A stretch of DNA of 47,702 bases from a virus. Each line of letters opens with the position of its first letter. Position 1 is the stretch's first letter. Below the pieces are notes generated by a model. The model saw nothing but the letters and a program-made list of their open reading frames with translations. It had not been told where the DNA came from and did no database searches. This document shows, one piece after another, positions 8,500 to 28,971 of this stretch. The stretch spans positions 1-47,702 of IMG/VR virus record IMGVR_UViG_3300022707_000188; one strand, given 5' to 3'. A program made the translations under genes and the position numbers.

Positions 8500-8690
8500 A
8501 TAAACAGTATAGAATAAGAGAGCGTTATGACGGATTTGTGCTGGAGCTTTTTAGAGAAGAACAAAGTTGTCCTAAAGGATATTCACCCAGTGGTAAAATA
8601 TCTGCTCATTGGGAATTTGTTGAGAGTTTTAAAAATCTTCAAAGCGCAGAAAAGCAGAGAGATTTAATTATTAATCCTGTATATCATTAA
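8496..8690 (+). CDS. Hypothetical protein, 64 aa
   Basis: Short charged protein starting MNKQYRIRERYDGFVLELFR and containing a W-E-F-V-E-S-F strand; it resembles the small beta-strand-rich proteins common in phage accessory regions. Its ATG overlaps the WbqC-like stop. No function is recognised. Confidence 0.65.
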   Translation: MNKQYRIRERYDGFVLELFREEQSCPKGYSPSGKISAHWEFVESFKNLQSAEKQRDLIINPVYH

Positions 8691-8698
8691 TACAAAAA

Positions 8699-13157: not shown

Positions 13158-13467
13158 ATACGATTGGAATGACGAAGCTTGTCGATATGATCCAGAAGAT
13201 GTGCTTCAAACAGTATGCTACAATGAAGGATACGATAGTGTTTGTGACATGGATAATGATCAATTGATGGGAGTGGAATGGTCTGAACCAGATAACAGTA
13301 GGAATAGTTTTGAGCCTAAATTCCGTATTAAGACGGATACATCTTTGGGGGCGTGTTCGATATCTGCCACGTTTTTATACAAAGGGTGGGAATATGAATC
13401 TATTGAAGAACTATACACACATCGAAATCTTAGACAAAAAGTAATAGACAAATTGTCTGATGATTAA
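13129..13467 (+). CDS. Hypothetical acidic protein, about 112 aa
   Basis: Start uncertain: ATG codons at 13114, 13117 and 13129 and a TTG at 13141 after AAGGAG all fit, and all overlap the preceding gene. The protein is acidic with several Cys residues and no recognised domain; EYESIEELYTHRNLRQKVID at the C-terminus looks helical. Tight overlap with the sigma-2-like gene suggests a paired role, for example a partner or antagonist, but this is inference. Confidence 0.6.
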   Translation: MKETLHNTIEYDWNDEACRYDPEDVLQTVCYNEGYDSVCDMDNDQLMGVEWSEPDNSRNSFEPKFRIKTDTSLGACSISATFLYKGWEYESIEELYTHRNLRQKVIDKLSDD

Positions 13468-13484
13468 AATAATTTCTATATTAG
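13453..13484 (+). promoter_or_regulatory. Possible promoter (TTG-N21-TATATTAG)
   Basis: TTG at 13453-13455 and TATATTAG at 13477-13484 (one mismatch from TAnnTTTG) are 21 bases apart, somewhat long. The box overlaps the end of the upstream gene region and precedes a structured non-coding stretch and a 24-codon frame that starts five bases after it. Confidence 0.35.
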
Positions 13485-13489
13485 CATAA

Positions 13490-13660
13490 ATGAAATCCAA
13501 GCTAAGTAACATAACATTGGTTATGGTTGTATGGTCTGCCGCACATCGGGGCCACACGATATAACGAATTTTACGTTAATAGTCCTAGGGTTATTTAACA
13601 TTGCAACCCCAAAGCGGGGCCATAGAATTTAAGGAGAGGCTTGGCGGCCTCTCTTTTTTA
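13490..13660 (+). ncRNA. Candidate structured RNA or leader with terminator
   Basis: This 170-base stretch holds no long gene. It begins with a 24-codon frame (13490-13564, MKSKLSNITLVMVVWSAAHR...), carries CGGGGCCA twice (13547-13554 and 13615-13622), and offers two exclusive hairpins: GGGTT/AACCC (13588-13592/13605-13609) and CCCC/GGGG (13607-13610/13616-13619). It ends in the terminator at 13634-13660. No plus-strand gene follows before the next promoter, so a free small RNA with or without a peptide is more likely than an attenuator. It could also be merely a 3' untranslated region. Confidence 0.35.
13634..13660 (+). terminator. Intrinsic terminator
   Basis: GAGAGGC (13634-13640) pairs with GCCTCTC (13647-13653) around a six-base loop and is followed by seven bases that are nearly all T. 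This is a clear Rho-independent terminator closing the glycan/sigma-like transcription unit. Confidence 0.85.
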
Positions 13661-13719
13661 TTTGTTATCTTTATCAGTAGGATAGGAATCTTCGCTCTCG
13701 GCCATCACACGATTGCTAA

Positions 13720-13750
13720 AGAGGCTCCCAAATTAGGGGGTCTCTTTTTT
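13720..13750 (+). terminator. Intrinsic terminator, second in tandem
   Basis: AGAGGCTCCC (13720-13729) pairs with GGGGGTCTCT (13736-13745), ten pairs with two G-U, then five T. It ends at the stop of the convergent minus-strand glycosyltransferase gene, so it insulates that gene from plus-strand read-through; its reverse reading has a poor U tract. Confidence 0.75.
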
Positions 13751-14426
13751 AACCCAAAGTATTAATCATCTTTGAATAGAACTCGAAAGATTCAGGGTCC
13801 ATGGCTTCTTTGAGAAATGCTAAATCCTGATCATCATGATCATACCTCTCCAGCTTGTTCGTGTGGAGCTGACCACCAACCATCCCCTGTCCATGTTTAA
13901 TCCCTATCGAAATCATCTCGGTTGGCTTAATAGATATCCTTCTCCACTTCATTCGTTTAGCAACAGTAGCCCAAAGCCAAGAGTCAGTATAAGGATTGAT
14001 GTCGTTCCCCCAATCAAGTTCCATATCCGGAAGTATCATGGTGTTCATTGCTGACGCTCTACGGATATGAACCATCAGAAGATGCTTCTTTAAACGTAGG
14101 TTATAATAGATCGTTTCGTTGGTTCCGAATAGATGAGGCTTGCCGTATCTGAACCACTCATGTAGCATATACTCAATGTAAGTGGGGGCGTACCAATCAT
14201 CATTCTCAATAAAGAATATACAGTCGAATCCTTTACCCATGAGATTCTGATAGCCGGTTCTATACCTCAGCGTAATATCACAATCTTCATTGATGGCGTC
14301 GAAATCAACCAGCTCTATATGGTCAGGTTTTCTAAATTGACAGTCCATCATTCGCAGACAATTCTCTAAAAACTCAGGTCGATCTCCCCTGTCCGGGATA
14401 ATGATTGCTACTTTAAAATTGTTCAT
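13749..14426 (-). CDS. Glycosyltransferase family 2-like, isolated on minus strand
   Basis: GT-A transferase of 225 residues. The start MNNFKVAIIIPDRGDR is a typical first strand, and CIFFIENDDWYAP (69-81) holds the DXD site (D76, D77). It is separated from the main glycan cassette and read in the opposite direction from a promoter shared in design with the ribbon-helix-helix gene near 27.9 kb. The ATG lies four bases after a TAAGTTTG box, so the mRNA is probably almost leaderless. It may act late, for example on virion glycans, since its promoter region is paired with the tail operon. That is inference. Confidence 0.82.
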   Translation of the reverse strand: MNNFKVAIIIPDRGDRPEFLENCLRMMDCQFRKPDHIELVDFDAINEDCDITLRYRTGYQNLMGKGFDCIFFIENDDWYAPTYIEYMLHEWFRYGKPHLFGTNETIYYNLRLKKHLLMVHIRRASAMNTMILPDMELDWGNDINPYTDSWLWATVAKRMKWRRISIKPTEMISIGIKHGQGMVGGQLHTNKLERYDHDDQDLAFLKEAMDPESFEFYSKMINTLG

Positions 14427-14430
14427 TCCA

Positions 14431-14438
14431 CAAACTTA
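14431..14438 (-). promoter_or_regulatory. -7 box for minus-strand glycosyltransferase
   Basis: Read on the minus strand this is TAAGTTTG, a full match to TAnnTTTG, with four bases between it and the ATG. The 24-base shared block begins one base further upstream. Confidence 0.5.
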
Positions 14439-14439
14439 T

Positions 14440-14463
14440 AAAAACCTCAACATTTAGCGCATT
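14440..14463. repeat. 24-base block shared with 27939-27962 (copy 1)
   Basis: Identical over 24 bases to 27939-27962, key bases AAAAACCTCAAC then ATTTAGCGCATT. The minus-strand -7 box ends one base before the block and the plus-strand -7 box starts 28 bases after its last base; both distances are the same at the second copy. Best read as a binding site for a regulator acting on divergent promoters. Confidence 0.8.
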
Positions 14464-14490
14464 CAAACAAACAAAAAAACACACATAGTT

Positions 14491-14498
14491 TACATTTG
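14491..14498 (+). promoter_or_regulatory. -7 box of the tail operon
   Basis: TACATTTG matches TAnnTTTG. No TTG is present at -33, in line with activation through the upstream 24-base block. The tail sheath ATG lies 32 bases downstream of the box. Confidence 0.5.
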
Positions 14499-14530
14499 GG
14501 AGTAATAATTTTCACAAAAACATCGGTTTT

Positions 14531-16054
14531 ATGGCCAGCGATGCAGTAGGTTCAGAAGTAGTTTCAACGGTTGTTGGCTACAAAATAACAAAAGGACAGT
14601 TCAATGAAACCTCTCCAAACCTTCCACAACGGGTTGACATTTTCGGAGAAGCCAACGAAGCAAATCAAACAGGCTTAGTTACCGCGGCAGTTCAAATAAC
14701 CACAGCGAAAAAGGCTGGTGAAGATTACGGATTTGGTTCACCTATTCACATGTCGGCAAGGATTCTATTCCCTGTTAGTGGTGATGGAATCGGAGGCATC
14801 CCTGTATTTGTTAGGGCTCAGGCAGAAGCGTCCGGAGCATCAGCGAAACTTTGGGAGATTAATCCTACGGGAGTTGCAACAGGAAACGGAACTCATACTA
14901 TTATAATCGCAGGGCGTGAAGGAATTGATGGGGATCGATATGACATCAACATTGAAACCGGTGATGATGCCGCTGCTGTTTCAGGTAAAATAGAAACCGC
15001 AGTAAACTTAATTATCTCAAGCCCGGTACTTGCGAACGACACCACCTATAGTACAATCCTTACTTCGAAATGGAAAGGTCTGACAGCAAATGACATTGTT
15101 GTTTCAGTTGATGTTAACGACAATGCGCTTGGGCTTACTTACGATGTTGAGGATGTTGCGGACGGAGCTGCGACACCGAGTATTTCTCAGGCATTACTAG
15201 ACCTTGGAAACGATTGGGCTACAATCATCCTTAATACTTACGGAACTGTTGAATCAATCATGGATTCACTGGAAGCTACAAATGGTATTCCAGACCCTAT
15301 TTCACCAACCGGAAGATTTACAGGAACCATAATGAAGCCTTTCATTGCTTTAACTGGTTCGACTGATGATGACCCTTCGCTTATTACCGACACCAGAAAA
15401 GAGGATGTTACGATTGCAATTTGTCCGGCACCATTATCACTAGGGCTTCCATTAGAAGCGGCAGCAAATGTATGTCGTTTATTCGCCAGACAATCACAAG
15501 ACAATCCACACGGAGATATTATAAATCAGTCTTATCCTGATATGCCAATACCGGCAGACGATGATATTGGTTTAATGGCACTCTTTATAAACAGAGATGC
15601 TATTGTTAAGAAGGGATCTTCTACGGTTGATCTGAACGTAGGCCGATATAGAATAAAAGATTTTGTAACAACGTATCACCCTGACGGAGAAATTCCACCA
15701 CAGTTCAGATATGCTAGAAACCTAATGCTTGATTTGAATGTATTCTTTGGATACTTCTTATTGGAAGAGACGTTCTTGGTTGGGAAAACACTAGCTGGTA
15801 ATGATGATCAGATTGTAGTCGCTGGAGTGATCAAGCCTAAGACATGGCAAGGGATTGTACACCAATACGCAAACGATCTAGCATCCAGGGCTCTGATTAC
15901 TGATGCCGCATTTATGCAGGACTCATTATTAGTAGTAATTTCTAGTTCAAATCCTGACAGATTAGAAACATCTTTTAGATATAAACGAACAGCCATTGGA
16001 CGAATCTCAGCCACTACAGCAGAGGCAGGATTTAGCTTCGGTGGATCATCATAA
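14531..16054 (+). CDS. Tail sheath protein (Mu gpL-like)
   Basis: Forms the contractile outer tube. The 507-residue length fits Mu gpL (495). The N-terminus YKITKGQFNETSPNLPQRV, then IFGEANEANQ, resembles the Mu/FluMu sheath entry segment, the middle is a beta-rich insertion domain, and the conserved C-terminal domain runs from about 320 (VCRLFARQSQDNPHGD, later FVTTYHPDGEIPPQFRYARN and VFFGYFLLEE) to the end. Followed by the tube gene after 12 bases. It establishes the phage as a myovirus. Confidence 0.9.
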   Translation: MASDAVGSEVVSTVVGYKITKGQFNETSPNLPQRVDIFGEANEANQTGLVTAAVQITTAKKAGEDYGFGSPIHMSARILFPVSGDGIGGIPVFVRAQAEASGASAKLWEINPTGVATGNGTHTIIIAGREGIDGDRYDINIETGDDAAAVSGKIETAVNLIISSPVLANDTTYSTILTSKWKGLTANDIVVSVDVNDNALGLTYDVEDVADGAATPSISQALLDLGNDWATIILNTYGTVESIMDSLEATNGIPDPISPTGRFTGTIMKPFIALTGSTDDDPSLITDTRKEDVTIAICPAPLSLGLPLEAAANVCRLFARQSQDNPHGDIINQSYPDMPIPADDDIGLMALFINRDAIVKKGSSTVDLNVGRYRIKDFVTTYHPDGEIPPQFRYARNLMLDLNVFFGYFLLEETFLVGKTLAGNDDQIVVAGVIKPKTWQGIVHQYANDLASRALITDAAFMQDSLLVVISSSNPDRLETSFRYKRTAIGRISATTAEAGFSFGGSS

Positions 16055-16066
16055 CAATAAAATATT

Positions 16067-16474
16067 ATGGCAGTAGGCGGCGATATAACCGAAATCACTT
16101 TTGACCACCCAACAATAGGGTCGGGTTCATTTTTCCCAAAAGCTAATGAGGGTAATACTTTTAAGCCCGGAGGGATAATGGCAAACGATGACGCTAATCA
16201 AGTTGGTGGAGATGGAGAGATGATTGTGCAACTCAACAGGACTCTCGGGCATTTCGAAGTTCTTTGTGTAAACGACATGAACATTAGGGACGATATATCT
16301 AAGGCTCAAGAGCTACAAGGTGATCCTGTAAATACTGATTTTACTGTTTCTTTAAACAACAAAACAGTATGGAAAGGAACTGGCCGTCCGGTTGGGGAAT
16401 TGACATCTGACACCAACGCTTCCACATTTACTTTAAAAATCAATGCTCCTGTATGGGAGAAAATAGTAGGATAA
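16067..16474 (+). CDS. Tail tube protein
   Basis: 135 residues, directly after the sheath and before the tail chaperone, the fixed position of the inner tube gene. The beta-rich sequence with GGIMANDDANQVGGDGEM and FTVSLNNKTVWKGTGRPVG suits the single-domain tube fold (Mu gpM is 118 residues). The call is by position and composition. Confidence 0.8.
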   Translation: MAVGGDITEITFDHPTIGSGSFFPKANEGNTFKPGGIMANDDANQVGGDGEMIVQLNRTLGHFEVLCVNDMNIRDDISKAQELQGDPVNTDFTVSLNNKTVWKGTGRPVGELTSDTNASTFTLKINAPVWEKIVG

Positions 16475-16475
16475 A

Positions 16476-16925
16476 ATGAATGAAAACAAGAATGAAACCG
16501 AAACTGCTCCGGCAGAGCAGAAAGAAAAAACGGGTGTAATATCCGAAAATATTGCAAGACGAGACATTGACAAGTGGCTTGACGTTAAAAAAATAAGACC
16601 AAAAAAGCGAGAGGAGAAGAAGGAGTCTATTGATAAGCTGGTGGATGCTGTAATGGATGGGATGCTAAGTGTCGAGAATGATGGCAGCAAGTTGGTTCAA
16701 AAATTGATACACCCGATTGGAGAAATCCGAGAGCTAAGTTACAAGTCGAGGATATCACTAGCTGAAAAGAATAGACATACGCTTGGAGTCAATATTGCAG
16801 AAGACTTTGGAGGATATATACTGGCTCATGTTGCTGCCCTGACAGATAAGCCAAAAACTTTGGTTGGAAAGATGGATACAGAGGATAATGATATTGCAAA
16901 TTCTATTGCCCTTTTTTTCATATAG
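16476..16925 (+). CDS. Tail assembly chaperone, short form
   Basis: 149 residues, equivalent to gpG of lambda or gp41 of Mu: a soluble, transient factor that coats the tape measure during tail assembly. The N-terminus is charged and disordered; residues 20-140 are helical. It ends with IALFFI and a TAG directly after a T-rich stretch that contains the slippery heptamer T TTT TTC (16913-16919) in the right phase for a -1 shift into the next frame. Confidence 0.8.
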   Translation: MNENKNETETAPAEQKEKTGVISENIARRDIDKWLDVKKIRPKKREEKKESIDKLVDAVMDGMLSVENDGSKLVQKLIHPIGEIRELSYKSRISLAEKNRHTLGVNIAEDFGGYILAHVAALTDKPKTLVGKMDTEDNDIANSIALFFI

Positions 16926-17104
16926 AAAGTGAAGAAAGTTTAAACAATGTAATCAAATCAGTAGTGTGGAGTTTCCACTGGCCACCAGAAAAAATTGAAA
17001 GTCTGTATCTTGATGATATGGACTTTCGTGGTTTATACTACTGGTACAATGAGATAAAAAACGAGGGCAAGGAAGAGCCTGAAGACGAAGAAAATGGCAG
17101 CTAG
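16919..17104 (+). CDS. Tail chaperone -1 frameshift extension
   Basis: A frame with no start of its own, read when ribosomes slip back one base at T TTT TTC: TTT TTC becomes TTT TTT and decoding resumes at CAT (16919). The 61 extra residues contain VVWSFHWPPEKIESLYLDD and a C-terminal run of Glu and Asp. The W-x-F-HWPP-x-x-x-x-x-L pattern is typical of gpGT-type extensions that bind the tape measure. The fused product would be about 209 residues. It overlaps the tape measure start by 11 bases. Confidence 0.8.
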   Translation, partial: HIESEESLNNVIKSVVWSFHWPPEKIESLYLDDMDFRGLYYWYNEIKNEGKEEPEDEENGS

Positions 17105-19196
17105 TCAATTCACCATACCAACAATATTCAAAGCTGTAGACCAGTACAGCAAGATCGTTAAGGGTATGCAGAAGACTACCCAAACCTTTAATCAAAAGGC
17201 TCAAGCCGGTATTGCCAAAAGTGAGCGCGCATTCAGAAGACTCACACCAGCGATAGGTGCAGCGGGAAAACAGTTTCTAGCTATGGCTGGAACTGCTGCT
17301 GCTGTGGTTGCAATATTTTCAGGAATAAGATTTTCAGTCAATGCCATGATAGAGTACGAGGACGCTGTTGCGTCTGCTATGGCTATAACCGGAACGACAA
17401 CAGAAACATTTAAGCCCTTCGCTGCGGAGATACAACGGATAGGCAAGGAGACAAGAAAATCAAATGTTGATATTGCAAAGGCTTTCGAAATTGTTGGTTC
17501 TGCCAAGCCCGATCTGCTTGCAAATGCAGACGCACTAGGGGCTGTTACCGAATCAGTTATTACATTAAGTAAGGCTAGTCGTTTAGAATTAGAACCGGCC
17601 GCCCTAGCGTTAACAGGGGTTATGAATCAGTTTAGCTTTGAGGGGTCTGAAGCTGCAAGAGTAATGAATGTTTTGGCTGCTGGCGCCTTAGAGGGGTCTG
17701 CTAATATTCCGAATATTGCAGCATCTATGAAGAACTTTGGTACTGTTGCTGCAAGTTCAAATATTACTCTTGAACAGTCTGTTGCCTTGATTGAGATACT
17801 AGGGGCTAAATCAATATTTGCAGAAGATGCTGGAACCAAATTAAAAGCAACAGTATTAAAATTAAAATCGGCCGGTCTTGGATTTGCTTCGGGACAATTT
17901 GATATTAATAACGCATTAGCAGAAACTCAGAAAAAACTAGACGCACTATCTAGTGAGCAGAAGAAGGCTGCATTTTTACAAAAAACATTTGGAGAGGGTC
18001 AAGTCACTACTGGACAAATCCTATTAGATAATGTTGCAACGTTTGGTGACTTAACTAAAGCTGTGACCGGAACAAATGTTGCTCAAGAACAGGCCGAAAA
18101 AAATTCAAACACTCTTGTCAACAGGCTTGATGAATTGAAGAACGCTTGGGTCAACATAATCACAGGTTCTGATGGAGCAGGAAGTGCTCTTGATTCAGTT
18201 AAGAAAATAATAGTATTCGTAACGGATAACCTTGAAACGATTGTATCTACGGGGTTAAAAGTTCTCAAGTTTTTCGCCCTATGGAAAGCGGCTAATTTAA
18301 TTGCGAAAGTTTCGTTAGCCGCGTACAATATAGTTCTGGGGATTAGCAACGCCCTACAGGGAGCATCATCAATAGCTGTAGGGAAAAGCAGCCTTGCAAT
18401 AAAAGCGTATACGATAACGACGAAGATCGCAGCAGTTGCAGCAAGAGTTATGGGCTTAGCTGTAAAGGCTGGTCTAGGACCAATCGGGTTAATGATAACA
18501 GTTGTGGGGGCTATTATTGGGGCTATTGCTTTATGGACCAGCGGCACAAAAGAATTGACAGCAGAGCAAAAAATTAATAACGAAGTTCAGAAAAGAGCTG
18601 TTGATGCTAGTGCTACTCAGAGGGCTGAGGTGATGGTATTGTTCCAGCAATTAAGAAATTTAAAATCTGGAACAGAAGCGTATACCGCTGTTCTTAAAAA
18701 GATCGAAGAAATATCTCCGGGAATAACTGAGAATTATAATCTACAAGCAGGAGCTTTAGAAAACATTAATGCTGCTGAAAAAGAGTTAACAAGGAATATT
18801 TTAAAACGAGCTGAGGTTCAGGCAAGGGCAGCGATATTGCAGGAAACATTTGAAGAACAAATAAAAACTCAAGCTGATATTTCACAAATTACGGCTGGTG
18901 GTAAAACCGTCGAAGACCTACCCATCGGTGAGGCAATCAAACTTACAGGGCTCACTATAAAACTAGCTGAGTTGGAATCTAAAACGAAGATATTGGGCGG
19001 GCAAGTAGCAGCAGATGAAGCTGAAAAGATAACGCCTCAGAAAACATTTACAGAACAACTTGAGGCTAAACAAGAGAAGGCTCAGAAGTTGGGGATTAAA
19101 ATAAATTTTGACAATTTACCACCTTGGTTGCAGGGGATGGTTGAGACTACCACAGAGGGAGGCTTGAAATTAATCGAAACAACAGAAACGAACTAA
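17094..19196 (+). CDS. Tape measure protein
   Basis: Sets tail length and probably passes with DNA into the host. 700 residues: a helical N-terminus, a TP901-type core around 75-300 (MIEYEDAVASAMAITGTT, ELEPAALALTGVMNQF, RLDELKNAWVNIITG at about 345), a hydrophobic stretch at 455-485 (GLGPIGLMITVVGAIIGAIALW) and a charged tail. By the rule of about 1.5 angstrom per residue the tail would be near 100 nm. It follows the frameshifted chaperone, as expected. Confidence 0.92.
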   Translation: MAASQFTIPTIFKAVDQYSKIVKGMQKTTQTFNQKAQAGIAKSERAFRRLTPAIGAAGKQFLAMAGTAAAVVAIFSGIRFSVNAMIEYEDAVASAMAITGTTTETFKPFAAEIQRIGKETRKSNVDIAKAFEIVGSAKPDLLANADALGAVTESVITLSKASRLELEPAALALTGVMNQFSFEGSEAARVMNVLAAGALEGSANIPNIAASMKNFGTVAASSNITLEQSVALIEILGAKSIFAEDAGTKLKATVLKLKSAGLGFASGQFDINNALAETQKKLDALSSEQKKAAFLQKTFGEGQVTTGQILLDNVATFGDLTKAVTGTNVAQEQAEKNSNTLVNRLDELKNAWVNIITGSDGAGSALDSVKKIIVFVTDNLETIVSTGLKVLKFFALWKAANLIAKVSLAAYNIVLGISNALQGASSIAVGKSSLAIKAYTITTKIAAVAARVMGLAVKAGLGPIGLMITVVGAIIGAIALWTSGTKELTAEQKINNEVQKRAVDASATQRAEVMVLFQQLRNLKSGTEAYTAVLKKIEEISPGITENYNLQAGALENINAAEKELTRNILKRAEVQARAAILQETFEEQIKTQADISQITAGGKTVEDLPIGEAIKLTGLTIKLAELESKTKILGGQVAADEAEKITPQKTFTEQLEAKQEKAQKLGIKINFDNLPPWLQGMVETTTEGGLKLIETTETN

Positions 19197-19672
19197 TGGC
19201 AATATTCGATTTAAAAGTTGTAGAGAACGGAGATGGTGGTGACCTTGAACAATTGGGCGCTGATCTGGCTGTCATTGGTGGCCTTCAGAATATGGTCTAT
19301 CTGGGATTGTTCGGAGGTAACGTGGAGCAATCAACCGAGGGAGCAAAGCCTGAAGATGAGGAAGCCTTTGATTGGTGGGGGAATAATTTATTAATGCCCA
19401 ATGATAAGAGTATTCAATTCAACTCAGGATTTGAAAGAGCGCTCAGGGAAATCCCTTTAAATAGCGCAGGGAGAATCGAGCTGGAAGAAATTGCTAAGTC
19501 TGATCTGGAGTTCATGAGTGACTTCGCTATCGTTACGGTGACCATCTCAATTGAAACAGAAGATAGACTTGAAATATTTGTAAGAGCGCAGGAGCCGGAT
19601 AACCTACAATCAACCGAATTTATATTTATCTGGGATGCAACCAAAGAAGAATTAACTGAAGAATCAGCATGA
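19196..19672 (+). CDS. Mu gp46-like baseplate protein
   Basis: 158 residues with MAIFDLKVVENGDGGDLEQL, MVYLGLFGGNVEQS, FDWWGNNLL and RALREIPL, matching the layout of Mu gp46 (GPW/gp25-like baseplate wedge): a short beta start, a WWGN-type motif and a helix that follows. It overlaps the tape measure stop (TAATG) and the gp47-like start (ATGA). In Mu this gene follows the gp45 spike; here it follows the tape measure. Confidence 0.78.
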   Translation: MAIFDLKVVENGDGGDLEQLGADLAVIGGLQNMVYLGLFGGNVEQSTEGAKPEDEEAFDWWGNNLLMPNDKSIQFNSGFERALREIPLNSAGRIELEEIAKSDLEFMSDFAIVTVTISIETEDRLEIFVRAQEPDNLQSTEFIFIWDATKEELTEESA

Positions 19673-20844
19673 CCAATATACCTACATTAGCCGAAACCTT
19701 TAGCAGCGTCATAGCAACGCTTGAAACAAAGTATGGTGATACCATTTCATTAACCGGCAAAGTATTCTTACGCGCTTACGCAGGAGTTCTAGCGGCAAAC
19801 ATACACCTACTCTATTTAGCCGTTGGAGATGTTCAGAAAAACGTATGGCCTGACTTGGCTGATACCGAAGCTCAGGGAGGAACCCTTGAGAGATTCGGAA
19901 GGGTAAAACTGGACAGAAATCCGACAACCGCAACGGCCGCATTTTATAACATACAGTTAACCACGCCTGTTGGAGCACCAACAACCGGAACTGTTGTTCC
20001 TGAAAATACCATATTCAAGTCTGATGATGACTCGCTTAACCCGGGGAAACTATACTCTTTAGATACAGAGTTCACTTTGGAGGGAACCAACATAATAGAA
20101 GTGAGGGCTTTGGTGCCAGGGATTGATTCTAAATTATCAGTGGCTGACACCTTAACAGCGACAGCCCCTATTGCTTTAGTCGATCAGGTTGCTACGGTTG
20201 TCACTGAAGAACAGGCACCATTGGCGGCTGAAACAATCGAGGCTTATAGAGCTGAGATCATTCAGGCTTTTCGTTTAGCTCCACAAGGAGGGTCTGGTTC
20301 AGACTATAGAATTTGGGCAGCAGAAGTTTCGGGAGTTCAACAGTCTTATCCTTTTGCAAAGGCCGGAAATGTTAATGAGGTTGATCTATTTATCGAGGCT
20401 ACTGAAGTTGATTCAACCGATGGAAACGGAACACCTACTTCTGATATTATCGATAACGTAGAATCAGCGGTTGAGGATCCGACAGCAGATCGGCCATCAA
20501 GAAAACCCCTCACTGTTTTTGAGGTTAACTTTCTAGCCGTAACACCTTTGGCGATAGAAATAGATATAGCTGGATTTGTCGGAATAACAACAGCCAAGGA
20601 TGATGCAATAACAAACGCCATAACTGAAGACCTTAAAACCGTTCGTCCATTTGTGGGGTCAATAGATATTCTCTCTGCCAAGAACGACATCTTCGATAAG
20701 AATAGAATAGTTTCTTTGATATTAGAGGCAGTTCCGGGAAGTGTGTTTGGAGCAATTATATTGAAGGTTAATACTGTATCTGTTGAAACCTTTACTTTTG
20801 AAAACGGAGATATACCATTCTTTGAAAACCTTGATTTTAGTTAA
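19669..20844 (+). CDS. Baseplate J-like protein (Mu gp47)
   Basis: 391 residues. The N-terminus IPTLAETFSSVIATLETKYGD and the central EAYRAEIIQAFRLAPQGGSGSDYRIWAAEVSGV (about 195-225, shown here in part as APQGGSGSDYRIWA) match the baseplate J/gp47 signature. It forms wedges that join hub and sheath. Coupled to the gp46-like gene before and the gp48-like gene after, the conserved 46-47-48 order of Mu. Confidence 0.88.
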   Translation: MTNIPTLAETFSSVIATLETKYGDTISLTGKVFLRAYAGVLAANIHLLYLAVGDVQKNVWPDLADTEAQGGTLERFGRVKLDRNPTTATAAFYNIQLTTPVGAPTTGTVVPENTIFKSDDDSLNPGKLYSLDTEFTLEGTNIIEVRALVPGIDSKLSVADTLTATAPIALVDQVATVVTEEQAPLAAETIEAYRAEIIQAFRLAPQGGSGSDYRIWAAEVSGVQQSYPFAKAGNVNEVDLFIEATEVDSTDGNGTPTSDIIDNVESAVEDPTADRPSRKPLTVFEVNFLAVTPLAIEIDIAGFVGITTAKDDAITNAITEDLKTVRPFVGSIDILSAKNDIFDKNRIVSLILEAVPGSVFGAIILKVNTVSVETFTFENGDIPFFENLDFS

Positions 20845-21551
20845 TGGCTACTACTGATAAAATAAAGAATCTATTTAAGCAACTCTTTCCAACCGGAAGG
20901 GGTTTCGCTGTTCCCAAAGATGGGGATAAAGAGAAGCTTGTTGAGGCTACAGCTGATGAACTTGCTCAGGTATTTGATGATGCCATTTCGATATTCGATT
21001 CGATACTTCCAGACAACGATAACTTTACAGCCGATGACGCAACAAGATGGGAGGAAAGGCTTGGGCTAATTACCGGTGAATCAATTTCTTTGGACGACAG
21101 AAAGGAAGCGATCAAGGCTAAGATGAATCACCCGGGAACAATCTTGGCAAGACAGAGCGCGGACTATATGCAGGATCAAATACAAGATGCTGGATTTCCA
21201 ACTGTATTTGTATTTGAAAATAAGTTCCCTGATGGGTATGACTTTACAACCATGTATCCAAGTGAGTTTGATGTATCAGGTTTGGTCGAATTTCAGCATG
21301 GAGATTTTGACCACGGAGATCAGGAGCATGGAGATTTTTGGGGAGATATAATTGTGAATCATATTGACTTTTTAAAAGATCAATCTTTTCCAATTCCAGC
21401 AAGTCTCAAAGGCACCTTTATTATATCGGCTGGAACCGTTGGGGATTTTACACTTGTTGAGGAGGCGCGAAGAGATGAACTGAGACAATTAATATTAAAA
21501 ACTAAACCAGCAGAATCCATAGGATTTCTGTTTATAACTTATACGACATAA
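20844..21551 (+). CDS. Mu gp48/YmfQ-like baseplate protein
   Basis: 235 residues. LFKQLFPTGRGFAVPKDGDK and ATRWEERLGLITGESISLDDR are characteristic of the YmfQ/DUF2313 family, which sits at the baseplate edge and links tail fibres. The C-terminal half has a repeated aromatic-acid pattern, FQHGDFDHGDQEHGDFWGD, that could bind metal. Overlaps neighbours by one base each side. Confidence 0.85.
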   Translation: MATTDKIKNLFKQLFPTGRGFAVPKDGDKEKLVEATADELAQVFDDAISIFDSILPDNDNFTADDATRWEERLGLITGESISLDDRKEAIKAKMNHPGTILARQSADYMQDQIQDAGFPTVFVFENKFPDGYDFTTMYPSEFDVSGLVEFQHGDFDHGDQEHGDFWGDIIVNHIDFLKDQSFPIPASLKGTFIISAGTVGDFTLVEEARRDELRQLILKTKPAESIGFLFITYTT

Positions 21552-22072
21552 TGGCACGAAAATTAGAAGATCAAGACAATGTAGACCCATCTGATGATGA
21601 CTTTTTATACGGTCGGATAAGAGATCGAGACGGGGGAACCCCTGGAACCAGAGTAGATGAAGCGGTGTATGGTGACATTCATCAGTTCTTCGCGCGGCTA
21701 ATGGCCCTACATGGACCCGTTCATAATAATCTTCCAGACAGTGACTATGTTGGTTTTCAATTATTTGAAGCCTTGACGCAATTCGCATTGAATCCAACGA
21801 TTGTTGATATCGGGGTGTGGGATATGGACAGTACGGCAAACGTTGTTATAACACATAATATAGCAGATCACCTAAAAATCAGAAGTATTGACGTTATAAT
21901 AATTAATGACTCAGAGACCAGTCTAGTTCCACTGGTTACAGCCGGTGCGGTTAATTCAACCAGCTCAGCAACCATAACCTTAGCAAGAGAAGGTGGTGGA
22001 GCTTTTGACAATACTGAGTATGATGATGTGTCTATAAATAGAGGGCATATCAAATTCAACCTAGTTAATTAA
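21551..22072 (+). CDS. Tail fibre or baseplate-edge protein (probable)
   Basis: 173 residues, directly after the gp48-like gene, where Mu encodes its tail fibre. The N-terminus RIRDRDGGTPGTRVDEAVYG and a HQFFARLMALHG helix resemble the virion-attachment start of short fibres; the rest is beta-rich (VWDMDSTANVVITHNIADHL). It is short for a receptor-binding fibre, so it may be an adaptor to which another protein binds. Confidence 0.6.
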   Translation: MARKLEDQDNVDPSDDDFLYGRIRDRDGGTPGTRVDEAVYGDIHQFFARLMALHGPVHNNLPDSDYVGFQLFEALTQFALNPTIVDIGVWDMDSTANVVITHNIADHLKIRSIDVIIINDSETSLVPLVTAGAVNSTSSATITLAREGGGAFDNTEYDDVSINRGHIKFNLVN

Positions 22073-22803
22073 TGGCTGTAAAGCTTAACATAAATACTAG
22101 CGCTGTTGTCGAATGGACAAACAAACTTGAGAAGATGCACAGGTCCGCTTTGCCTGTGGCAATAAGAACGACCCTAAACTCAGCAGCGTTTGATGTTAAG
22201 AAAAACACTTTATTGACTATTGCAGATAAGACATTTGACAAAAGACGGGCTAATTTTTTCAAAGCTAATTCAAGAGTCGAGTTGGCCAAGGGCTTCAATG
22301 TGAACAGCATGGAGGCAATCGTTGGGATGATTGGTACAGGAGGCGCTAATAAGGCCGTTAAGGAATTAGAGCAACAAGAAAAAGGAGGATCGATAGAGCG
22401 AAGTTTTATTCCTTTGTCTCAGTCCAGAGTTGGAAAGAGCCATATTAAAAGCGTCAGAAAACAAAACAGACTATCGAATCTGGATCAACTTAAATTGGCC
22501 AGAAATTCCAAAGCCAAAACTAAGGCAGGGAGATTCTACTCGACAATACAACACGTAGGGGTGGGGGGTGTTTTCATGGATAGAAATCCTAAGAGTGGAA
22601 AGTTCATTGTTTGGAGAGTGAACTCTCTTCGAAGAACTAAAGAGGGGGCCGCAAAATTGACGCCTCTATACTGGTTTAAACCCGGCAGAAGAGTTCGAAT
22701 AAACGCCACTCACTTTATGGAAAGAGCATCAAATTTATCAGCACAGAGGTTACCTGAGTTCTTTATTAAGGAGGCTCAGAAACAAATCAATAGATTGAAA
22801 TGA
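22072..22803 (+). CDS. Minor tail protein, lambda Z-like (possible)
   Basis: 243 residues, basic and helical at the N-terminus (AVVEWTNKLEKMHRSALPVA, then TTLNSAAFDVKKN), a pattern seen in prophage minor tail protein Z and related tail-completion proteins: an amphipathic start, a basic central loop and a C-terminal helix (LPEFFIKEAQKQINRLK). In its usual setting Z lies near head-tail joining genes; here it lies inside the baseplate block. The family call is moderate. Confidence 0.5.
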   Translation: MAVKLNINTSAVVEWTNKLEKMHRSALPVAIRTTLNSAAFDVKKNTLLTIADKTFDKRRANFFKANSRVELAKGFNVNSMEAIVGMIGTGGANKAVKELEQQEKGGSIERSFIPLSQSRVGKSHIKSVRKQNRLSNLDQLKLARNSKAKTKAGRFYSTIQHVGVGGVFMDRNPKSGKFIVWRVNSLRRTKEGAAKLTPLYWFKPGRRVRINATHFMERASNLSAQRLPEFFIKEAQKQINRLK

Positions 22804-24026
22804 GTTGGGTAGATAATATAAAGAAAGGTCTTGTTATCAAAACTGGTGATGGTTTGGAGTTTACCCCCGACTATATTATTTCTGCAATTACAAAGGAGTA
22901 CAATATAACTGAGTTCAATTTTCCAAACATCAAGGGAACCCTTGTTGATCGGAGAGAGCCATTGGGCAGAAAAATAACCATTGATATATTTTTCCAGGGA
23001 GATGATCATTTGGACATAGCTGACAGCTTTGATAAAAGTGCTGACGACAAAAGACCATGGACGATATCGCATCCTCTTCACGGAAGCCTACTGGTCCAAC
23101 CGGCATCCACTAAACGAGATCCGACAGGATTGGGATTAACTAAGTTCACGCTTGTTCTAATGGAGACGCTTTCACAAAATGCTCCAATTACAACTGTTGA
23201 TCCGCGTGAACAAATGCTCATTGATATTACGAACCTCAACATAATTTCAGGGGAGTCTTTTGAGGCAAATGTTATTCCGGGCGCGTCAGATATTGTTTTA
23301 TTGGACAACAATTTAGATGATCTATTTGATGATGCTGATACTTTCGCTCTTACGGATTTGGAGTTTCAGGAATATTTCAATCTTTACAACACCGCGATAA
23401 CGGCCATTATCAATGCAACAGCCGAACCGTTGTTTGCCATAAATGCAATGAGAGCATTTACCATGCAGCCATCTCTTTTTAAAATCGCTGTAAAGGATAG
23501 GCTTAACATATTCAAAGAGCAGCTATCAGGGCTTATCTCAGGGCTTGTGAATATAGTTACCCCAAACGAAAAGAACATCTTTGAGAACAACGCCGGTGGT
23601 GTAATAATGGCAATGGTTCAATCAGCTGCATTTCCTATTGAAGATGATTTCAATAATACCATCGATGTTCTGGATGTTATCGATACACTGGTGGACAGCT
23701 TTGATAACTATCTTGATTCGCTGGATACGATTCAAACTGATACCGGAGATGAGTTAGATTCTTATATTCCGGACCACGCATCACTGTCCGGAATGACGAT
23801 CGTTATAAATTTCGCAGTAGCCAACCTATTCGAAATAGCACTTGATGCAAAACAAGAGAGACAAATAATTTTAGAGGCCGATAGCAACCTGATAAACTTG
23901 GCTCATCGTTTTGTTATTCTGGATGAGGCAGATGTAAATCTAGAGACCTTCAAAAAGAATAACGGGATTGGACTATCGGAAATATTGTTGATCAAAAAAG
24001 GAAGGTCGATAAGATATTATGTCTGA
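22800..24026 (+). CDS. Mu gpN-like DNA circularisation/baseplate hub protein
   Basis: 408 residues. The N-terminal domain has TGDGLEFTPDYIISAITKEY, NFPNIKGTLVDRREPLGRKI and FFQGDDHLDIADSF, then WTISHPLHGSLLVQP, matching the DNA circularisation N-terminal domain of Mu gpN. The rest is helical and acidic. In Mu this protein forms the central hub around the spike. It is followed by the gpP-like and gp45-like genes, keeping the Mu N-P-45 order. Confidence 0.85.
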   Translation: MSWVDNIKKGLVIKTGDGLEFTPDYIISAITKEYNITEFNFPNIKGTLVDRREPLGRKITIDIFFQGDDHLDIADSFDKSADDKRPWTISHPLHGSLLVQPASTKRDPTGLGLTKFTLVLMETLSQNAPITTVDPREQMLIDITNLNIISGESFEANVIPGASDIVLLDNNLDDLFDDADTFALTDLEFQEYFNLYNTAITAIINATAEPLFAINAMRAFTMQPSLFKIAVKDRLNIFKEQLSGLISGLVNIVTPNEKNIFENNAGGVIMAMVQSAAFPIEDDFNNTIDVLDVIDTLVDSFDNYLDSLDTIQTDTGDELDSYIPDHASLSGMTIVINFAVANLFEIALDAKQERQIILEADSNLINLAHRFVILDEADVNLETFKKNNGIGLSEILLIKKGRSIRYYV

Positions 24027-25110
24027 GTTAATCCTTAATATAAACGATAGGTTCAAAAACAGAAGGGTGCTGAAATTCAATAATTTCACTTTCACCCTAA
24101 AGCATAATTCAGTCGCTAGTCCATTTACGTTTAATGCCTTCTTTGATACAGATGATGCGGCTCATAAAGAACTCTATTGTGTCGATCATTATCATGATAT
24201 GACGCTCGACTTCGGGACTCAAAGATTGATCACAGGAACCCTTACAAATAACGGTTTTAAAAGAGCAGCAAAAAAACAACCGGCATCAATAAGTGGATAT
24301 GCTCGTCCGGGAGTTTTGGAAGATTGCAACATAGCTCCGACCGAATATCCTTTACAATCTAATGGGTTATCTTTAAAGAATATTACCGAGAAATTAATCA
24401 GGCCGTTTAAACTAGACTTGGTTATTGATCCGGAGGTAGCAGATAAGGTTAATAAAACTTTTGACACCGCATCGGCCAGCAACACCCAAACAATACAGGC
24501 GTTTCTTGCACAGCTTTGCCAGCAAAAAGACCTGATACTTTCGCACAATGAATTTGGAGCGCTATTAATTACCAAGGCCAAAACGAATCAGAAGCCCATT
24601 CTTGAATTTGATTTTACAAAAGGATCTCTACCGGGAACTGAGGCTGAGTTTGAATTCGATGGAAGGGCAATGCACTCGCATATTTATGTCGTAGGGCAGT
24701 CAAGCATAAAGGGTGGAAACGCAAGGGAGGCCCTTGAGAGAAACCCTTATGTTCCCGTGGTGTTCAGGCCAAAGGTTATAACTCAATCAAGTGGAGATGA
24801 TAACGATTCTTCTTTAACAGCGAGAAGGGAGATAGCCAAGGAATTAAGGGGGATTAAATTGACAATCAAAACCGATCGGTGGATTATTAATGAGAAGATA
24901 ATTCGACCTAATAATATAATCACAATCATCGATCCTGAATTATACATCTTTGTGAAGACTACTTTTTTCATCGAGTCGATTAGCTTCGTGGGTAACAATG
25001 AAAAAACAACAGCCACTTTAAATTGTGTTTTGCCTGAAGTTTACACCAATGAAATTCCGACCACTACAATTTATGATGGTATTAATTTAACACCTCAGCC
25101 ACATATATGA
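24019..25110 (+). CDS. Mu gpP (gp44)-like baseplate hub protein
   Basis: 363 residues. Its four-domain gpD/gp27-like layout is suggested by FNNFTFTLKHNSVASPFTF at the start, SGYARPGVLEDCNI, LSLKNITEKLIRPFKLDLVI (a LysM-like stretch near 120-140) and the C-terminal strand pattern. Its trimer would form the hub seat for the spike encoded next. Overlaps the gpN-like gene by eight bases and the spike gene by ATGA. Confidence 0.82.
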   Translation: MSELILNINDRFKNRRVLKFNNFTFTLKHNSVASPFTFNAFFDTDDAAHKELYCVDHYHDMTLDFGTQRLITGTLTNNGFKRAAKKQPASISGYARPGVLEDCNIAPTEYPLQSNGLSLKNITEKLIRPFKLDLVIDPEVADKVNKTFDTASASNTQTIQAFLAQLCQQKDLILSHNEFGALLITKAKTNQKPILEFDFTKGSLPGTEAEFEFDGRAMHSHIYVVGQSSIKGGNAREALERNPYVPVVFRPKVITQSSGDDNDSSLTARREIAKELRGIKLTIKTDRWIINEKIIRPNNIITIIDPELYIFVKTTFFIESISFVGNNEKTTATLNCVLPEVYTNEIPTTTIYDGINLTPQPHI

Positions 25111-25652
25111 AAATAGGAAAGGTGATATCAACATCAATAGAGGGTGGGGTGCGGTTCATTAAGTTTGAAGGGTCCGGAACTCAGGACATAAAGGATCGTC
25201 AATTTGTTTCGCCTCACGGAATTGATTCAGTGCCAATTGTAGGAGCCGTTTGCCTATATGTTGAAACAAGCATTCAGGGAGAGTTGGTTGTGATAGGATA
25301 TATTGGTGACAACGGTATATCAGGATTAAGTGAGGGAGAGTCCAGGCTTTATTCAACTAATTCAAGCGGTGTTTTGCAGATCGATCTTATAATGAGGGAC
25401 GATGGTACTGCCGAATTTGGAGGGAGCGCTGATTTCATGGTTCGATTTCTTGAGTTGAAGGCCGGATATGATGAATTGAAGGCTGATCTTAACAGCCACA
25501 TATCGGATTATAATACGCATATACATATCACCACTGCAACGATTGGTGCCAGCGCAACACCTGGGGTCATATCACCAACAACCTCTACATCAACGCCATC
25601 GACAGCTTCAATTGATGATGCTAAAATTGATGAGATAAAAACATCAGGATAA
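25107..25652 (+). CDS. Baseplate spike (Mu gp45-like)
   Basis: 181 residues. An OB-fold at the N-terminus (KIGKVISTSIEGGVRFIKFE, then FVSPHGIDSVPIVGAVCLYV) leads to a beta-helix stretch and a C-terminal segment with HIHITTA, the H-x-H motif that holds an iron ion at the spike tip in phages Mu and P2. The very end (STSTPSTASIDDAKIDEIKT) is low complexity. It pierces the outer membrane on contraction. Confidence 0.85.
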   Translation: MKIGKVISTSIEGGVRFIKFEGSGTQDIKDRQFVSPHGIDSVPIVGAVCLYVETSIQGELVVIGYIGDNGISGLSEGESRLYSTNSSGVLQIDLIMRDDGTAEFGGSADFMVRFLELKAGYDELKADLNSHISDYNTHIHITTATIGASATPGVISPTTSTSTPSTASIDDAKIDEIKTSG

Positions 25653-25658
25653 ATTACC

Positions 25659-25666
25659 TAACTTTA
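25659..25666 (+). promoter_or_regulatory. Weak -7 box before the head genes
   Basis: TAACTTTA (last base differs from TAnnTTTG) is followed by five bases and the ATG of the gpW-like gene. No -33 box is evident. It would let head-joining and portal genes be transcribed apart from the tail operon. Confidence 0.25.
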
Positions 25667-25671
25667 CAATT

Positions 25672-25992
25672 ATGAGTCATCCAATCTTCTTTAAAATAAA
25701 CGCAGGGTACAGATCGAGGTCTGATATTGAGTCCATTATTTCTCAATTGGATGCCTTAATTAATTCTTTAATAACCGAAGCGATTGTATCTGTTGCTGGA
25801 GGAAACATAATCGAATACGAGCTTGATACAGGTCAGACAAAAACAAAGGTTAAAAGATTTTCAACAGCCACAGAAGTTCAGGAGGCTATAGAGGGGTATG
25901 AAAGATTGCGCGTATATTATCAGAACAAATTGATATGTCGTAGAACTAGATTAGTTCCGGACAGAAACTTTAGAAGAACAAGACGATGTTAG
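25672..25992 (+). CDS. gpW-like head-tail joining protein
   Basis: 106 residues directly before the portal, the position of gpW in lambda-like phages. A helix RSRSDIESIISQLDALINSL, a beta hairpin (GGNIIEYELDTGQTK) and a helix ATEVQEAIEGYERLRVYYQ fit the gpW fold; the Arg-rich tail (RTRLVPDRNFRRTRRC) may touch DNA or the portal. It plugs the filled head before tail joining. The lambda protein is 68 residues, so this one is longer. Confidence 0.7.
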   Translation: MSHPIFFKINAGYRSRSDIESIISQLDALINSLITEAIVSVAGGNIIEYELDTGQTKTKVKRFSTATEVQEAIEGYERLRVYYQNKLICRRTRLVPDRNFRRTRRC

Positions 25993-27617
25993 ATCTTAAA
26001 CTTTGGACAAAGGAGTTTTGGCAAGATGCTCCAAAAAAAACGCCTACCGCATTTCATACATCGCATTCAGGGGCGTTCACAGGATTAGGATTTGTCCAAT
26101 CATTTGATGGTGAAAAGAATCTTGGTGCAATTGGGCCAGTGGTTGACCTTCGAATGGATTACTATGCTCTTAATTTAAGATCATGGGAAGCTTACGTAAA
26201 ATCTGAGATAGCGCAAGCAGTTCTTAACAGGTATATTCTTTGGGTTGTTGATAAGGGTCTTAAACTTAACGCTACTCCAAACAACAACCTTCTGGAAATG
26301 GAAGGTATAACCGTTTTGAGAGAAGATTTCAATGATCAAGTGGAGGCTCGATTTATGACATGGGCCAAATCCATGAATCCTTCTGATGATAGAATGAGAA
26401 CATTAAACCAACTTGCTAAGGATGCTTTTAAAAACGCCAAGGTAGGAGGAGACGTTCTGGTTGTTTTGAGATTGACTAAAACTGGAAATGTAACTGTTCA
26501 ATTGATAGACGGAGCAAATGTAGTAACACCGCTTGAGAAAAGGTTTGGTAATAACAGAATTAAGGATGGTATTGAGCGAGATGAAAGCGGAAGGGTTATT
26601 AAATACCACGTAAGAGTCGTAGACAGAGACAGAGATGATCAATTGGGAAGTTTAATATCCAATAAATTCGAAGAGATTGAGGCGATCAATAAAACAACCG
26701 GCTTAACAACAGCTTTCATGGTATTTGGATCCAAGTACCGAGAAAATACCGCAAGAGGTTTACCAATTATTTCTACTACCCTTGAAACGATATCTAAATT
26801 AGATCGATATCAGGAAGCCATGGTAGGTTCGGCTGAAGAAAGAGCTAAAATTGTATACCAAGTAGTTCATCAACAGTTCAGTGATGGCGAAAGTCACTTG
26901 GCTGATTCGATTGCTTCAGGTTTTGATGTTGATAGTGCTGGTGAAGATGGTAGTTTTCCAGTTGATGAAATTGGAAATCAATTAGCCAACCAAGTAGCCG
27001 TATCCACAGATAAACAAACTTTCAATATGCCAAAAGGTGCTAAATTGGAATCTCTACAAAGTCAAACAGAATTATTTTTCGAAACGTTTTACAGCACCAA
27101 CGCGAATCTTATTTGTTCCGCTATAGGCATCCCTCCAAATGTGGCATTTTCACTTTATGACAATTCTTACAGTGCCTCAAGAGCCGCCACAAAAGATTGG
27201 GATCACACTATCGAAGTTGAACGAGATGATTTCAGATCCCAATTCTACCAACCTATCTATAATTTCTGGTTGCACTTTCAAATTGTTGCAATGAAGATTC
27301 AGGCGCCTGGATATTTGGAGGCTTTTGCTAATAATAATTCGATGATTATTGAAGCTTATAGATGCTGTCGATTTACCGGTCCTTCATTCCCTCATATAGA
27401 TCCTGTGAAAGAAGTAACTGCCGAGAGATTAAAGCTCGGAACAGAAGCGGCCCATATTCCATTAACCAGTATAGAGGCTGCAACTGAGAATTTGAATGGT
27501 GGAGATTCAACGGATAACCTAGAGCAATTTGTAAAAGAATTGGAAACGGCTAAAAAGTTGGGTCTTGAACCAGCGTCAGAATTACCACCAACAATCGAAG
27601 AGAAAGACGAGGACTAA
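25986..27617 (+). CDS. Portal protein (lambda gpB family)
   Basis: 543 residues, close to lambda gpB (533). Recognisable parts: RMDYYALNLRSWEAYVKSEI, AVLNRYILWVVDKGLKLNA, QLAKDAFKNAKVGGDVLVVL, and GIPPNVAFSLYDNSYSASRA near 380, the last being characteristic of lambda-type portals. It forms the dodecameric ring at one head vertex and docks the terminase. Next genes are the protease, decoration and capsid, as in lambda, except for a small minus-strand regulator between. Confidence 0.93.
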   Translation: MLDLKLWTKEFWQDAPKKTPTAFHTSHSGAFTGLGFVQSFDGEKNLGAIGPVVDLRMDYYALNLRSWEAYVKSEIAQAVLNRYILWVVDKGLKLNATPNNNLLEMEGITVLREDFNDQVEARFMTWAKSMNPSDDRMRTLNQLAKDAFKNAKVGGDVLVVLRLTKTGNVTVQLIDGANVVTPLEKRFGNNRIKDGIERDESGRVIKYHVRVVDRDRDDQLGSLISNKFEEIEAINKTTGLTTAFMVFGSKYRENTARGLPIISTTLETISKLDRYQEAMVGSAEERAKIVYQVVHQQFSDGESHLADSIASGFDVDSAGEDGSFPVDEIGNQLANQVAVSTDKQTFNMPKGAKLESLQSQTELFFETFYSTNANLICSAIGIPPNVAFSLYDNSYSASRAATKDWDHTIEVERDDFRSQFYQPIYNFWLHFQIVAMKIQAPGYLEAFANNNSMIIEAYRCCRFTGPSFPHIDPVKEVTAERLKLGTEAAHIPLTSIEAATENLNGGDSTDNLEQFVKELETAKKLGLEPASELPPTIEEKDED

Positions 27618-27925
27618 TATTTTTGATACCTCATGTGCTCTGGGTAATCATTCATTGAAATGTAGAGAAAAACTTTCATGACAGTTGATGGGGCCACTCT
27701 TATTTCTTTGGCAATGGTTTCAATTTGCTCCTTTAATTCGTCTGATATTCCTGACACCTGAATCCATCTATCACCATCTTCATAGTCTCTTGGCGTCATT
27801 TTACATAGAGCCTTTCTGATTCCTATTCTTGTGAGTTTGGCTTGCGGTGTATCCAGATTATGAGACAGGTTTTCGATTTCATTTTTAAGTCCTGAAGAAA
27901 CCTTAATGGATTTTTTATGCAACAT
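27614..27925 (-). CDS. Double ribbon-helix-helix protein
   Basis: 103 residues that read as two ribbon-helix-helix units in one chain: a strand KSIKVSSGLKNEIENLSHNL with a helix to about residue 40, then DRWIQVSGISDELKEQIETI and APSTVMKVFLYISM (residues 54-92). Two fused units would mimic the dimer needed to bind DNA. The ATG lies four bases after a -7-like box and five bases before the 24-base block, so it may regulate itself and the facing head operon. It ends overlapping the portal stop by four bases. Confidence 0.65.
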   Translation of the reverse strand: MLHKKSIKVSSGLKNEIENLSHNLDTPQAKLTRIGIRKALCKMTPRDYEDGDRWIQVSGISDELKEQIETIAKEIRVAPSTVMKVFLYISMNDYPEHMRYQKY

Positions 27926-27929
27926 GGCT

Positions 27930-27937
27930 GCAATTTA
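27930..27937 (-). promoter_or_regulatory. -7 box for the ribbon-helix-helix gene
   Basis: Read on the minus strand this is TAAATTGC, a weak match to TAnnTTTG, but it lies at exactly the same place relative to the ATG (four bases) and the 24-base block (one base) as the stronger box at 14431-14438. Confidence 0.38.
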
Positions 27938-27938
27938 C

Positions 27939-27962
27939 AAAAACCTCAACATTTAGCGCATT
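27939..27962. repeat. 24-base block shared with 14440-14463 (copy 2)
   Basis: Second copy of the block described at 14440-14463. Surrounding bases are less alike, so identity is confined to the block and to the spacing of its two flanking -7 boxes, which argues for function rather than recent duplication. Confidence 0.8.
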
Positions 27963-27989
27963 GAACTAATGATAAAAATTATGTTGGCT

Positions 27990-27997
27990 TACTTTTG
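27990..27997 (+). promoter_or_regulatory. -7 box of the head operon
   Basis: TACTTTTG matches TAnnTTTG and begins 28 bases after the last base of the 24-base block, as in the tail operon. The protease ATG follows after five bases, so the mRNA would be nearly leaderless. Confidence 0.55.
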
Positions 27998-28002
27998 GGC
28001 AT

Positions 28003-28971
28003 ATGCCAACGGAGCTTTTTTTATTATCTGGTATCGACAACATGGTTGCTGAGGAGTTCAGTAAAGCCATGAATGAGGCTGAAGGTGAGGACATCACACT
28101 TCGAATCAACTCTCCCGGTGGAAGTGTTTTTGCTGGATGGGTAATGGCCAAGAAAATAATAGATCACGATGGCACTGTTAACATGAAGATTGATGGAATG
28201 GCAGCATCGATGGCAGCGGTTTTAACTCTTTTTGCTGACAGTGTTGAAATGACTGATGTGGCAAGGATAATGATTCATAAGGCTTCAGTTTCATTTTTTG
28301 CAAATGATGCAGAACGGGAATTAGTCAACACCATTAATGACGATCTTAAAAAGAAACTTAACGCTCGGATTGACAACAAAAAATTAAAGGAACTGAAAGA
28401 CGTTACCATTAATAGTTTGTTTGCGGAAGAAGAACCAAGAGATATTTGGTTATCAGCAAAAGAGGCTAAAGATATTGGACTTGTGGATAAAGTTGTAAAA
28501 CTTAAAACGGCAGAAGTCAGAGCAATGATTACCGGTACCGGTGTATTTAATATAGCCGCTACTGCGGAACCAACAGTTGATCCACCAAAAAAAGAAGAAC
28601 CAAAAAATATCACTATGACATTGGAAGAATTTAAAGCACAGCATCCTGCTATTTTCGCAGAAGCAAAATTAGAAGGACACACCGAAGGAGTAAAAGCTGA
28701 AAACGATCGAATCGGAGCATGGATGACTTGGGTTGATATTGATCCTAAAGCCGTCACAGAAGGTATTAAGAGTGGTGAAGCATTGTCTGCTACGGCAATG
28801 TCAGATTTCACTCGTAAATCTACATCACCGGAAGTAATGGCAAAAGCAGCGGCAGAAGCAGCGGCAGCAGTTGAGGGTGATGACCCACCAAAAAGTGATG
28901 AGGGGGAGAAAAAAGAAGTAACAGATTTAGAGCTTCAAGTTCGTAACGCGGCCAAACTTAAAACAGTATAA
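28003..28971 (+). CDS. Prohead protease (ClpP/S14-type) with scaffold tail
   Basis: 322 residues. The first 170 are a ClpP-like serine protease: ITLRINSPGGSVFAGW, GMAASMA with nucleophile S69, MIHKAS with H92, and EPRDIWLSAKEAKDIGLVD with D147. The remaining part is Lys/Glu/Ala-rich, helical and acidic (MTLEEFKAQHPAIFAEAKLE, then KAAAEAAAAVEGDD) and probably serves as internal scaffold, much as lambda gpC and Nu3 share one frame. It acts inside the prohead and is removed before packaging. An internal scaffold start near ATG 28615 is possible. Confidence 0.88.
   Translation: MPTELFLLSGIDNMVAEEFSKAMNEAEGEDITLRINSPGGSVFAGWVMAKKIIDHDGTVNMKIDGMAASMAAVLTLFADSVEMTDVARIMIHKASVSFFANDAERELVNTINDDLKKKLNARIDNKKLKELKDVTINSLFAEEEPRDIWLSAKEAKDIGLVDKVVKLKTAEVRAMITGTGVFNIAATAEPTVDPPKKEEPKNITMTLEEFKAQHPAIFAEAKLEGHTEGVKAENDRIGAWMTWVDIDPKAVTEGIKSGEALSATAMSDFTRKSTSPEVMAKAAAEAAAAVEGDDPPKSDEGEKKEVTDLELQVRNAAKLKTV

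Follow-up and report, generated by a model that had tools for sequence, protein, structure and literature searches.

At the Pm promoter of phage Mu, the −35 element is replaced by a 16-bp element with its centre at −43.5, in which a dimer of Mor binds a pair of 5-bp inverted repeats (PMC4390567). A single early protein of phage phi29, p4, represses the early promoters and activates the late promoter with its poor −35 element (PMC3100819), and AvtR of the archaeal virus AFV6 represses its own gene and either activates or represses a neighbouring one (PMC5569661). The switch proposed here resembles that of phi29 in outline, in the dual repressing and activating role of one protein, but p4 is not a ribbon-helix-helix (RHH) protein, works together with p6 and a DNA hairpin, and serves a single late promoter. 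RHH proteins are mostly known as repressors, among them Arc of phage P22 and the plasmid protein CopG, whose operators overlap core promoters.

The locus described here lies in a 47,702-nt stretch of DNA of a Bacteroidota phage, referred to as the window. Promoters of this kind have in common with those of the Mu Mor/C systems a −10-type box and the lack of a −35 element; here the −33 element is missing, and the 17-bp element, usually with 5-bp arms in the relatives, is centred at about −49. The system differs in that the candidate regulator has an RHH rather than a Mor/C fold, the promoter is of the Bacteroidota type, the promoters of two operons are involved, the regulator gene is divergent from one of these two, the operator is phage-specific, and activation is deduced from promoter design. 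A phage-specific operator, a fixed distance to the −7 box and a missing −33 element together would constitute the design of an activator-dependent promoter like Mu Pm. AvtR (PDB 4hv0), the top PDB match of the family profile (E 7.5e-5), is a virus-encoded tandem RHH protein like the double RHH protein of the window, whereas its host is archaeal, it has eight potential sites as opposed to two blocks in the window, and the sequence similarity is only remote. Arc and CopG have in common with the present system the RHH fold and paired operator half-sites. A search of openly accessible journal articles returned nothing on RHH proteins at phage late promoters.

The window carries an identical 24-nt block ahead of its tail and head operons (Table 1), and a genome-wide search allowing up to three mismatches found these two copies only in the 47.7-kb genome, with no match in 100 shuffles. 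The original prediction had pointed to this block and to a gap of 28 nt from its last base to the start of the plus-strand TAnnTTTG box, and both were recovered at both sites, so that the block is equally far from the promoter of the tail sheath and from that of the head protease. The two sites can be aligned without gaps over 68 nt at 75% identity, up to TTTGGG, and in the 27 nt separating block from box their likeness is barely above the A-rich expectation. That the spacing of the block to the −7 box is what is kept was borne out, this spacing being conserved in relatives as well. The divergent minus-strand ORFs begin at 14426 and 27925, each 14 nt to the left of the block.

Table 1 Features of the two late promoter regions in the window
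Feature	Position	Strand	Remarks
Proposed operator, copy 1 (tail promoter)	14440-14463	+	roughly −63 to −40, counted from the inferred start; AAAAACCTCAACATTTAGCGCATT
Proposed operator, copy 2 (head promoter)	27939-27962	+	AAAAACCTCAACATTTAGCGCATT, same letters as copy 1
−7 box of tail promoter	14491-14498	+	TACATTTG; last base 44 nt from 14454 (inside the block)
−7 box of head promoter	27990-27997	+	TACTTTTG; start codon 6 nt further
−7-like box of divergent glycosyltransferase gene	14431-14438	-	TAAGTTTG; perfect match
Weak −7-like box of divergent RHH gene	27930-27937	-	TAAATTGC; 4/6 TAnnTTTG positions
Tail sheath, first gene of tail operon	14531-16054	+	PHROG 165, E 3.6e-72
ClpP-like head maturation protease, first gene of head operon	28003-28971	+	Pfam CLP_protease E 9e-22; PHROG 94
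Glycosyltransferase-like gene, divergent from tail promoter	13749-14426	-	weak Pfam GT2 match E 0.17; 49% identical to G001 counterpart
Tandem (double) RHH protein, 103 aa, proposed regulator	27614-27925	-	own-family HMM E 9e-34, window in seed

Neither plus-strand promoter of the window has a TTG at the −33 position, as had been anticipated, and an alignment of 42 promoters, chosen for this geometry, likewise contained the −7 box and no −33 TTG. The minus-strand −7 boxes claimed for both sites fared unequally: the one before the glycosyltransferase gene is perfect, and the one before the RHH gene is weak and matches TAnnTTGY, a motif (SM5) that in F. psychrophilum is kept apart from the main TAnnTTTG motif (PMC9723704). 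The head −7 box lies so close to its start codon that a near-leaderless mRNA is expected, and the TTTG-to-ATG distance at clpP in relatives is mostly 2–10 nt. The tail operon as delimited here spans 14531-27617 and includes the portal gene.

Among public contigs, the exact block was found only in L001, which is the same virus and therefore lends it no independent support. A scan with the baseplate protein alone gave no close relatives, and further loci were gathered by scans with sheath, baseplate and portal protein alignments, most of the relatives falling in Bacteroidota assemblies. The genome G001, with a portal protein 46% identical to that of the window, has the same layout of glycosyltransferase, block and tail sheath followed by small gene, block and protease, and its block, AATGTATACATT, was found at just the two equivalent places. 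The original prediction had proposed searching for the block in related phages and had taken its absence from them as grounds for rejection. The literal AAAAACCTCAACATTTAGCGCATT is indeed absent, but relatives carry a matching pair of their own in the equivalent place, so that this ground for rejection needs rewording. Sheath relatives L201-L211 were found in assemblies of Pedobacter, Mucilaginibacter, Allomuricauda and other Bacteroidota, some on contigs of more than 1 Mb, and integrated relatives may exist.

The pairing was assessed by comparing the 130 nt upstream of the sheath gene with the 130 nt upstream of clpP in 13 genomes having both promoters, with cross-genome values serving as the control for base composition. 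The own-genome pair was the row maximum in 12 of the 13 and exceeded every cross-genome pair in 10, and none of 20,000 re-pairing permutations reached the observed total. Overall, 15 of 16 split-operon genomes (window included, three added later from Bacteroidota assemblies) share a genome-specific block at both late promoters; the pairs of G022 and G030 are weak, and G008 is the exception, with no operator common to its two promoters. Examples are GCATCCAA(A/T)TTGGATGC in G033, GTTCCCAAATTCGGAAC in G010, TATGCCGAAAA(A/T)AGGCATA in G014 and TTCCCGCCAAAAGGGAC in G023. The clpP copy is inverted in G027, and in other pairs the arms are constant and the spacer is altered.

In most paired contigs, the operators are confined to exactly the two late promoters; close extra copies occur only in G010, the short cores of G030 and G022 yielding just chance-level matches. 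The extra operators of G010 (L190) are at L190:15109 and L190:17333, one some 390 nt ahead of the portal gene and the other adjoining the head-promoter copy on its RHH side, where it is possibly a site of autoregulation. Promoter pairs identical or nearly so over 80–93 nt were seen in G013 and in L203/L296. For the one relative represented by L203 (L203:9870-9995) and L296, no difference separates the two late promoters over a length of 93 nt or more, in which GTCCC motifs recur; one promoter may have been copied from the other recently, or gene conversion may have acted between them. Gene conversion, if it lies behind the near-identical pairs, would account for the joint change of both copies. 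No operator pair is expected in the phages FCL-2, FL-1 and phi38:2, which were discarded as pair carriers: their tail genes follow immediately on clpP and the head genes, and clpP has no annotated divergent neighbour.

An operator-anchored comparison of the relatives showed that the usual element is 17 bp long, with 5-bp inverted arms and a 7-bp spacer, and that, counted from its centre base, the TAnnTTTG box ends exactly 44 nt further on at both promoters in most genomes; G001 and G022 each have a different spacing of their own. Taking the −7 box to occupy −12 to −5, its mapped position in F. psychrophilum (PMC9723704), puts the centre of the element at about −49. On the tail side, among 66 non-redundant loci of which none had been used in deriving the rule, perfect arms at 44 nt were present in seven, no other distance between 30 and 60 nt having more than two and the shuffled mean being 0.13; outside this range, five loci had them at 27 nt. 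On the head side, 16 clpP loci with an RHH gene, one of them from a genome of the derivation set, had the arms at 44 nt versus at most two elsewhere, and in more than half of the RHH-bearing clpP loci a dyad was not detected under the criteria used. The spacing of the minus-strand box varies among relatives. In the window, the expected 17-bp element would occupy 14446-14462, entirely within the block, where a search for inverted symmetry found none.

In 50 of 61 loci, an RHH gene, single or tandem, adjoins the head promoter in divergent orientation, about 14 of these genes being tandem as in the window. In most of the first genomes compared, the divergent neighbour of clpP encodes a small protein whose sequence combines an IRIxGV-like strand segment with two helices; in G014 the RHH gene is slightly further from clpP. 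The 39.5-kb contig of G009 has the operator pair and no RHH gene that could be found, and four contigs in which head precedes tail (L023, L033, L038 and L080) also have none; with that gene order, a single promoter could serve both operons.

The conserved IRIxGV alignment and the predicted helices give the N-terminal strand and two helices (about 45 residues) expected of an RHH protein, and two helix-helix units are predicted in the 103-aa protein of the window. The strand is not formed in monomer models, as expected where the fold needs a partner. Structure comparison returned nearly exclusively RHH proteins (CopG, Arc, PutA, AmrZ and omega), each weak alone with Z of at most 5.0, and CopG was among the low-rmsd Foldseek matches of the models, each of these also weak (E >0.5). 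Comparison with Pfam and PHROG gave no significant family. The candidate is RHH-like, and a Mor/C fold was not found. The double RHH protein, put forward earlier as a regulator, is the best candidate. Where a dyad could be identified, the arms contained TCC for 17 of the 24 proteins that have Arg at one position of the DNA-reading strand, and for none of the five that lack it (p = 0.007, an exploratory value, as the pattern was noticed before testing and the proteins are related). The tandem architecture was rejected as the cause of the asymmetric operator of the window, a perfect dyad being present with 4 of 15 double and 13 of 35 single proteins (p = 0.53).

Taken from sequence, the block is probably the operator of the RHH regulator encoded beside copy 2, an autoregulated late activator that would couple head and tail synthesis, and this protein is likely the switch of both late promoters. 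Host RNA polymerase with its main sigma factor would use the late promoters poorly alone. Once accumulated, the RHH protein would bind the operator directly upstream of the missing −33 element and recruit polymerase, turning on the tail and head operons together. Binding would also silence the regulator gene itself, as well as any divergent glycosyltransferase gene, given that the −7-like box on the divergent side is only about 10–28 nt away from the operator. We infer activation rather than repression from the operator position and the missing −33 element, and the timing of the switch is likewise a matter of inference. The original prediction of a joint switch would hold for the head and tail promoters, with the block as their shared regulator site, but not for the glycosyltransferase as a constant member. 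That gene diverges from the tail promoter in the window, G001, G009, G012, G013, G005 and others, and is elsewhere or not detected in G023, G027, G030, G033, G010, G014 and G022. Tail operators at which no divergent glycosyltransferase was found (G027, G033, G010 and others), together with the variable minus-strand spacing, argue that the plus-strand promoter is the conserved target. The stretch between the terminase and tail genes (4048-14426) apparently contains several genes resembling those of glycosyltransferases and methyltransferases, mixed with small ORFs.

An upstream operator is also compatible with repression, and the RHH protein could bind it to hold both late promoters off, in the manner of Arc and CopG, until late in infection or in a lysogenic or carrier state. 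We consider this unlikely, even with these two repressors as its nearest PDB matches: the element, with its arms at −57 to −41, lies upstream of the polymerase core elements at promoters that lack a −33 element, and its base-exact spacing fits polymerase contact, whereas a repressor site commonly overlaps the core and can do without a fixed phase.

It is less likely still that another phage or host factor, such as an unseen early protein or the sigma-2-like protein suggested earlier as a binder of the block, reads the element and that the RHH gene is merely a target, as might be thought from G009 and L230, which have the element and no RHH gene beside clpP. The sigma-2-like protein (12465-13157) is an in-frame fusion of an N-terminal half resembling NUMOD4/HNH (Pfam E 2.6e-7) with a C-terminal half resembling sigma-70 region 2, whose Pfam score is weak (E 3e-4) and falls short of the curated cut-off. 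This sigma part has no relatives among the fetched loci; its proposed role was thus not borne out, and it was rejected as a partner. An operator that differs from phage to phage should have a reader that is phage-encoded and changes too, and the RHH gene lies beside the operator in most loci, with a strand residue that varies with the arms.

Very improbable, finally, is that the elements are intrinsic terminators or RNA hairpins separating transcription units and alike within a genome through duplication: several are terminator-like (in G033, GCATCCAAATTGGATGC followed by eight T) and the near-identical pairs of G013 and L203/L296 suggest recent copying, but the window block forms no stable hairpin on either strand (MFE 0 to −3.2 kcal/mol, not below shuffles), an exact 44-nt distance to the −7 box would be meaningless for a terminator, in most genomes the sequence around the identical blocks has diverged, and the G027 copy is inverted.

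If the RHH protein is the late activator, the protein-operator pair would alter its recognition sequence rapidly, giving each phage a private version. More tentatively, and perhaps doubtfully at this breadth, a large group of Bacteroidota myophages may use RHH late activators whose code and operators co-diversify under a base-exact geometry, so that the structural genes of a phage would obey no regulator but its own and be insulated from co-infecting relatives. We found no description of late-gene activation in this phage group in the literature, and the present analysis offers, for many of these phages, a concrete and testable candidate regulator together with its putative operator and the promoter geometry. 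The matched protein-operator pairs would form a natural series for how RHH strands read DNA, and the geometry rule locates late promoters from sequence alone.
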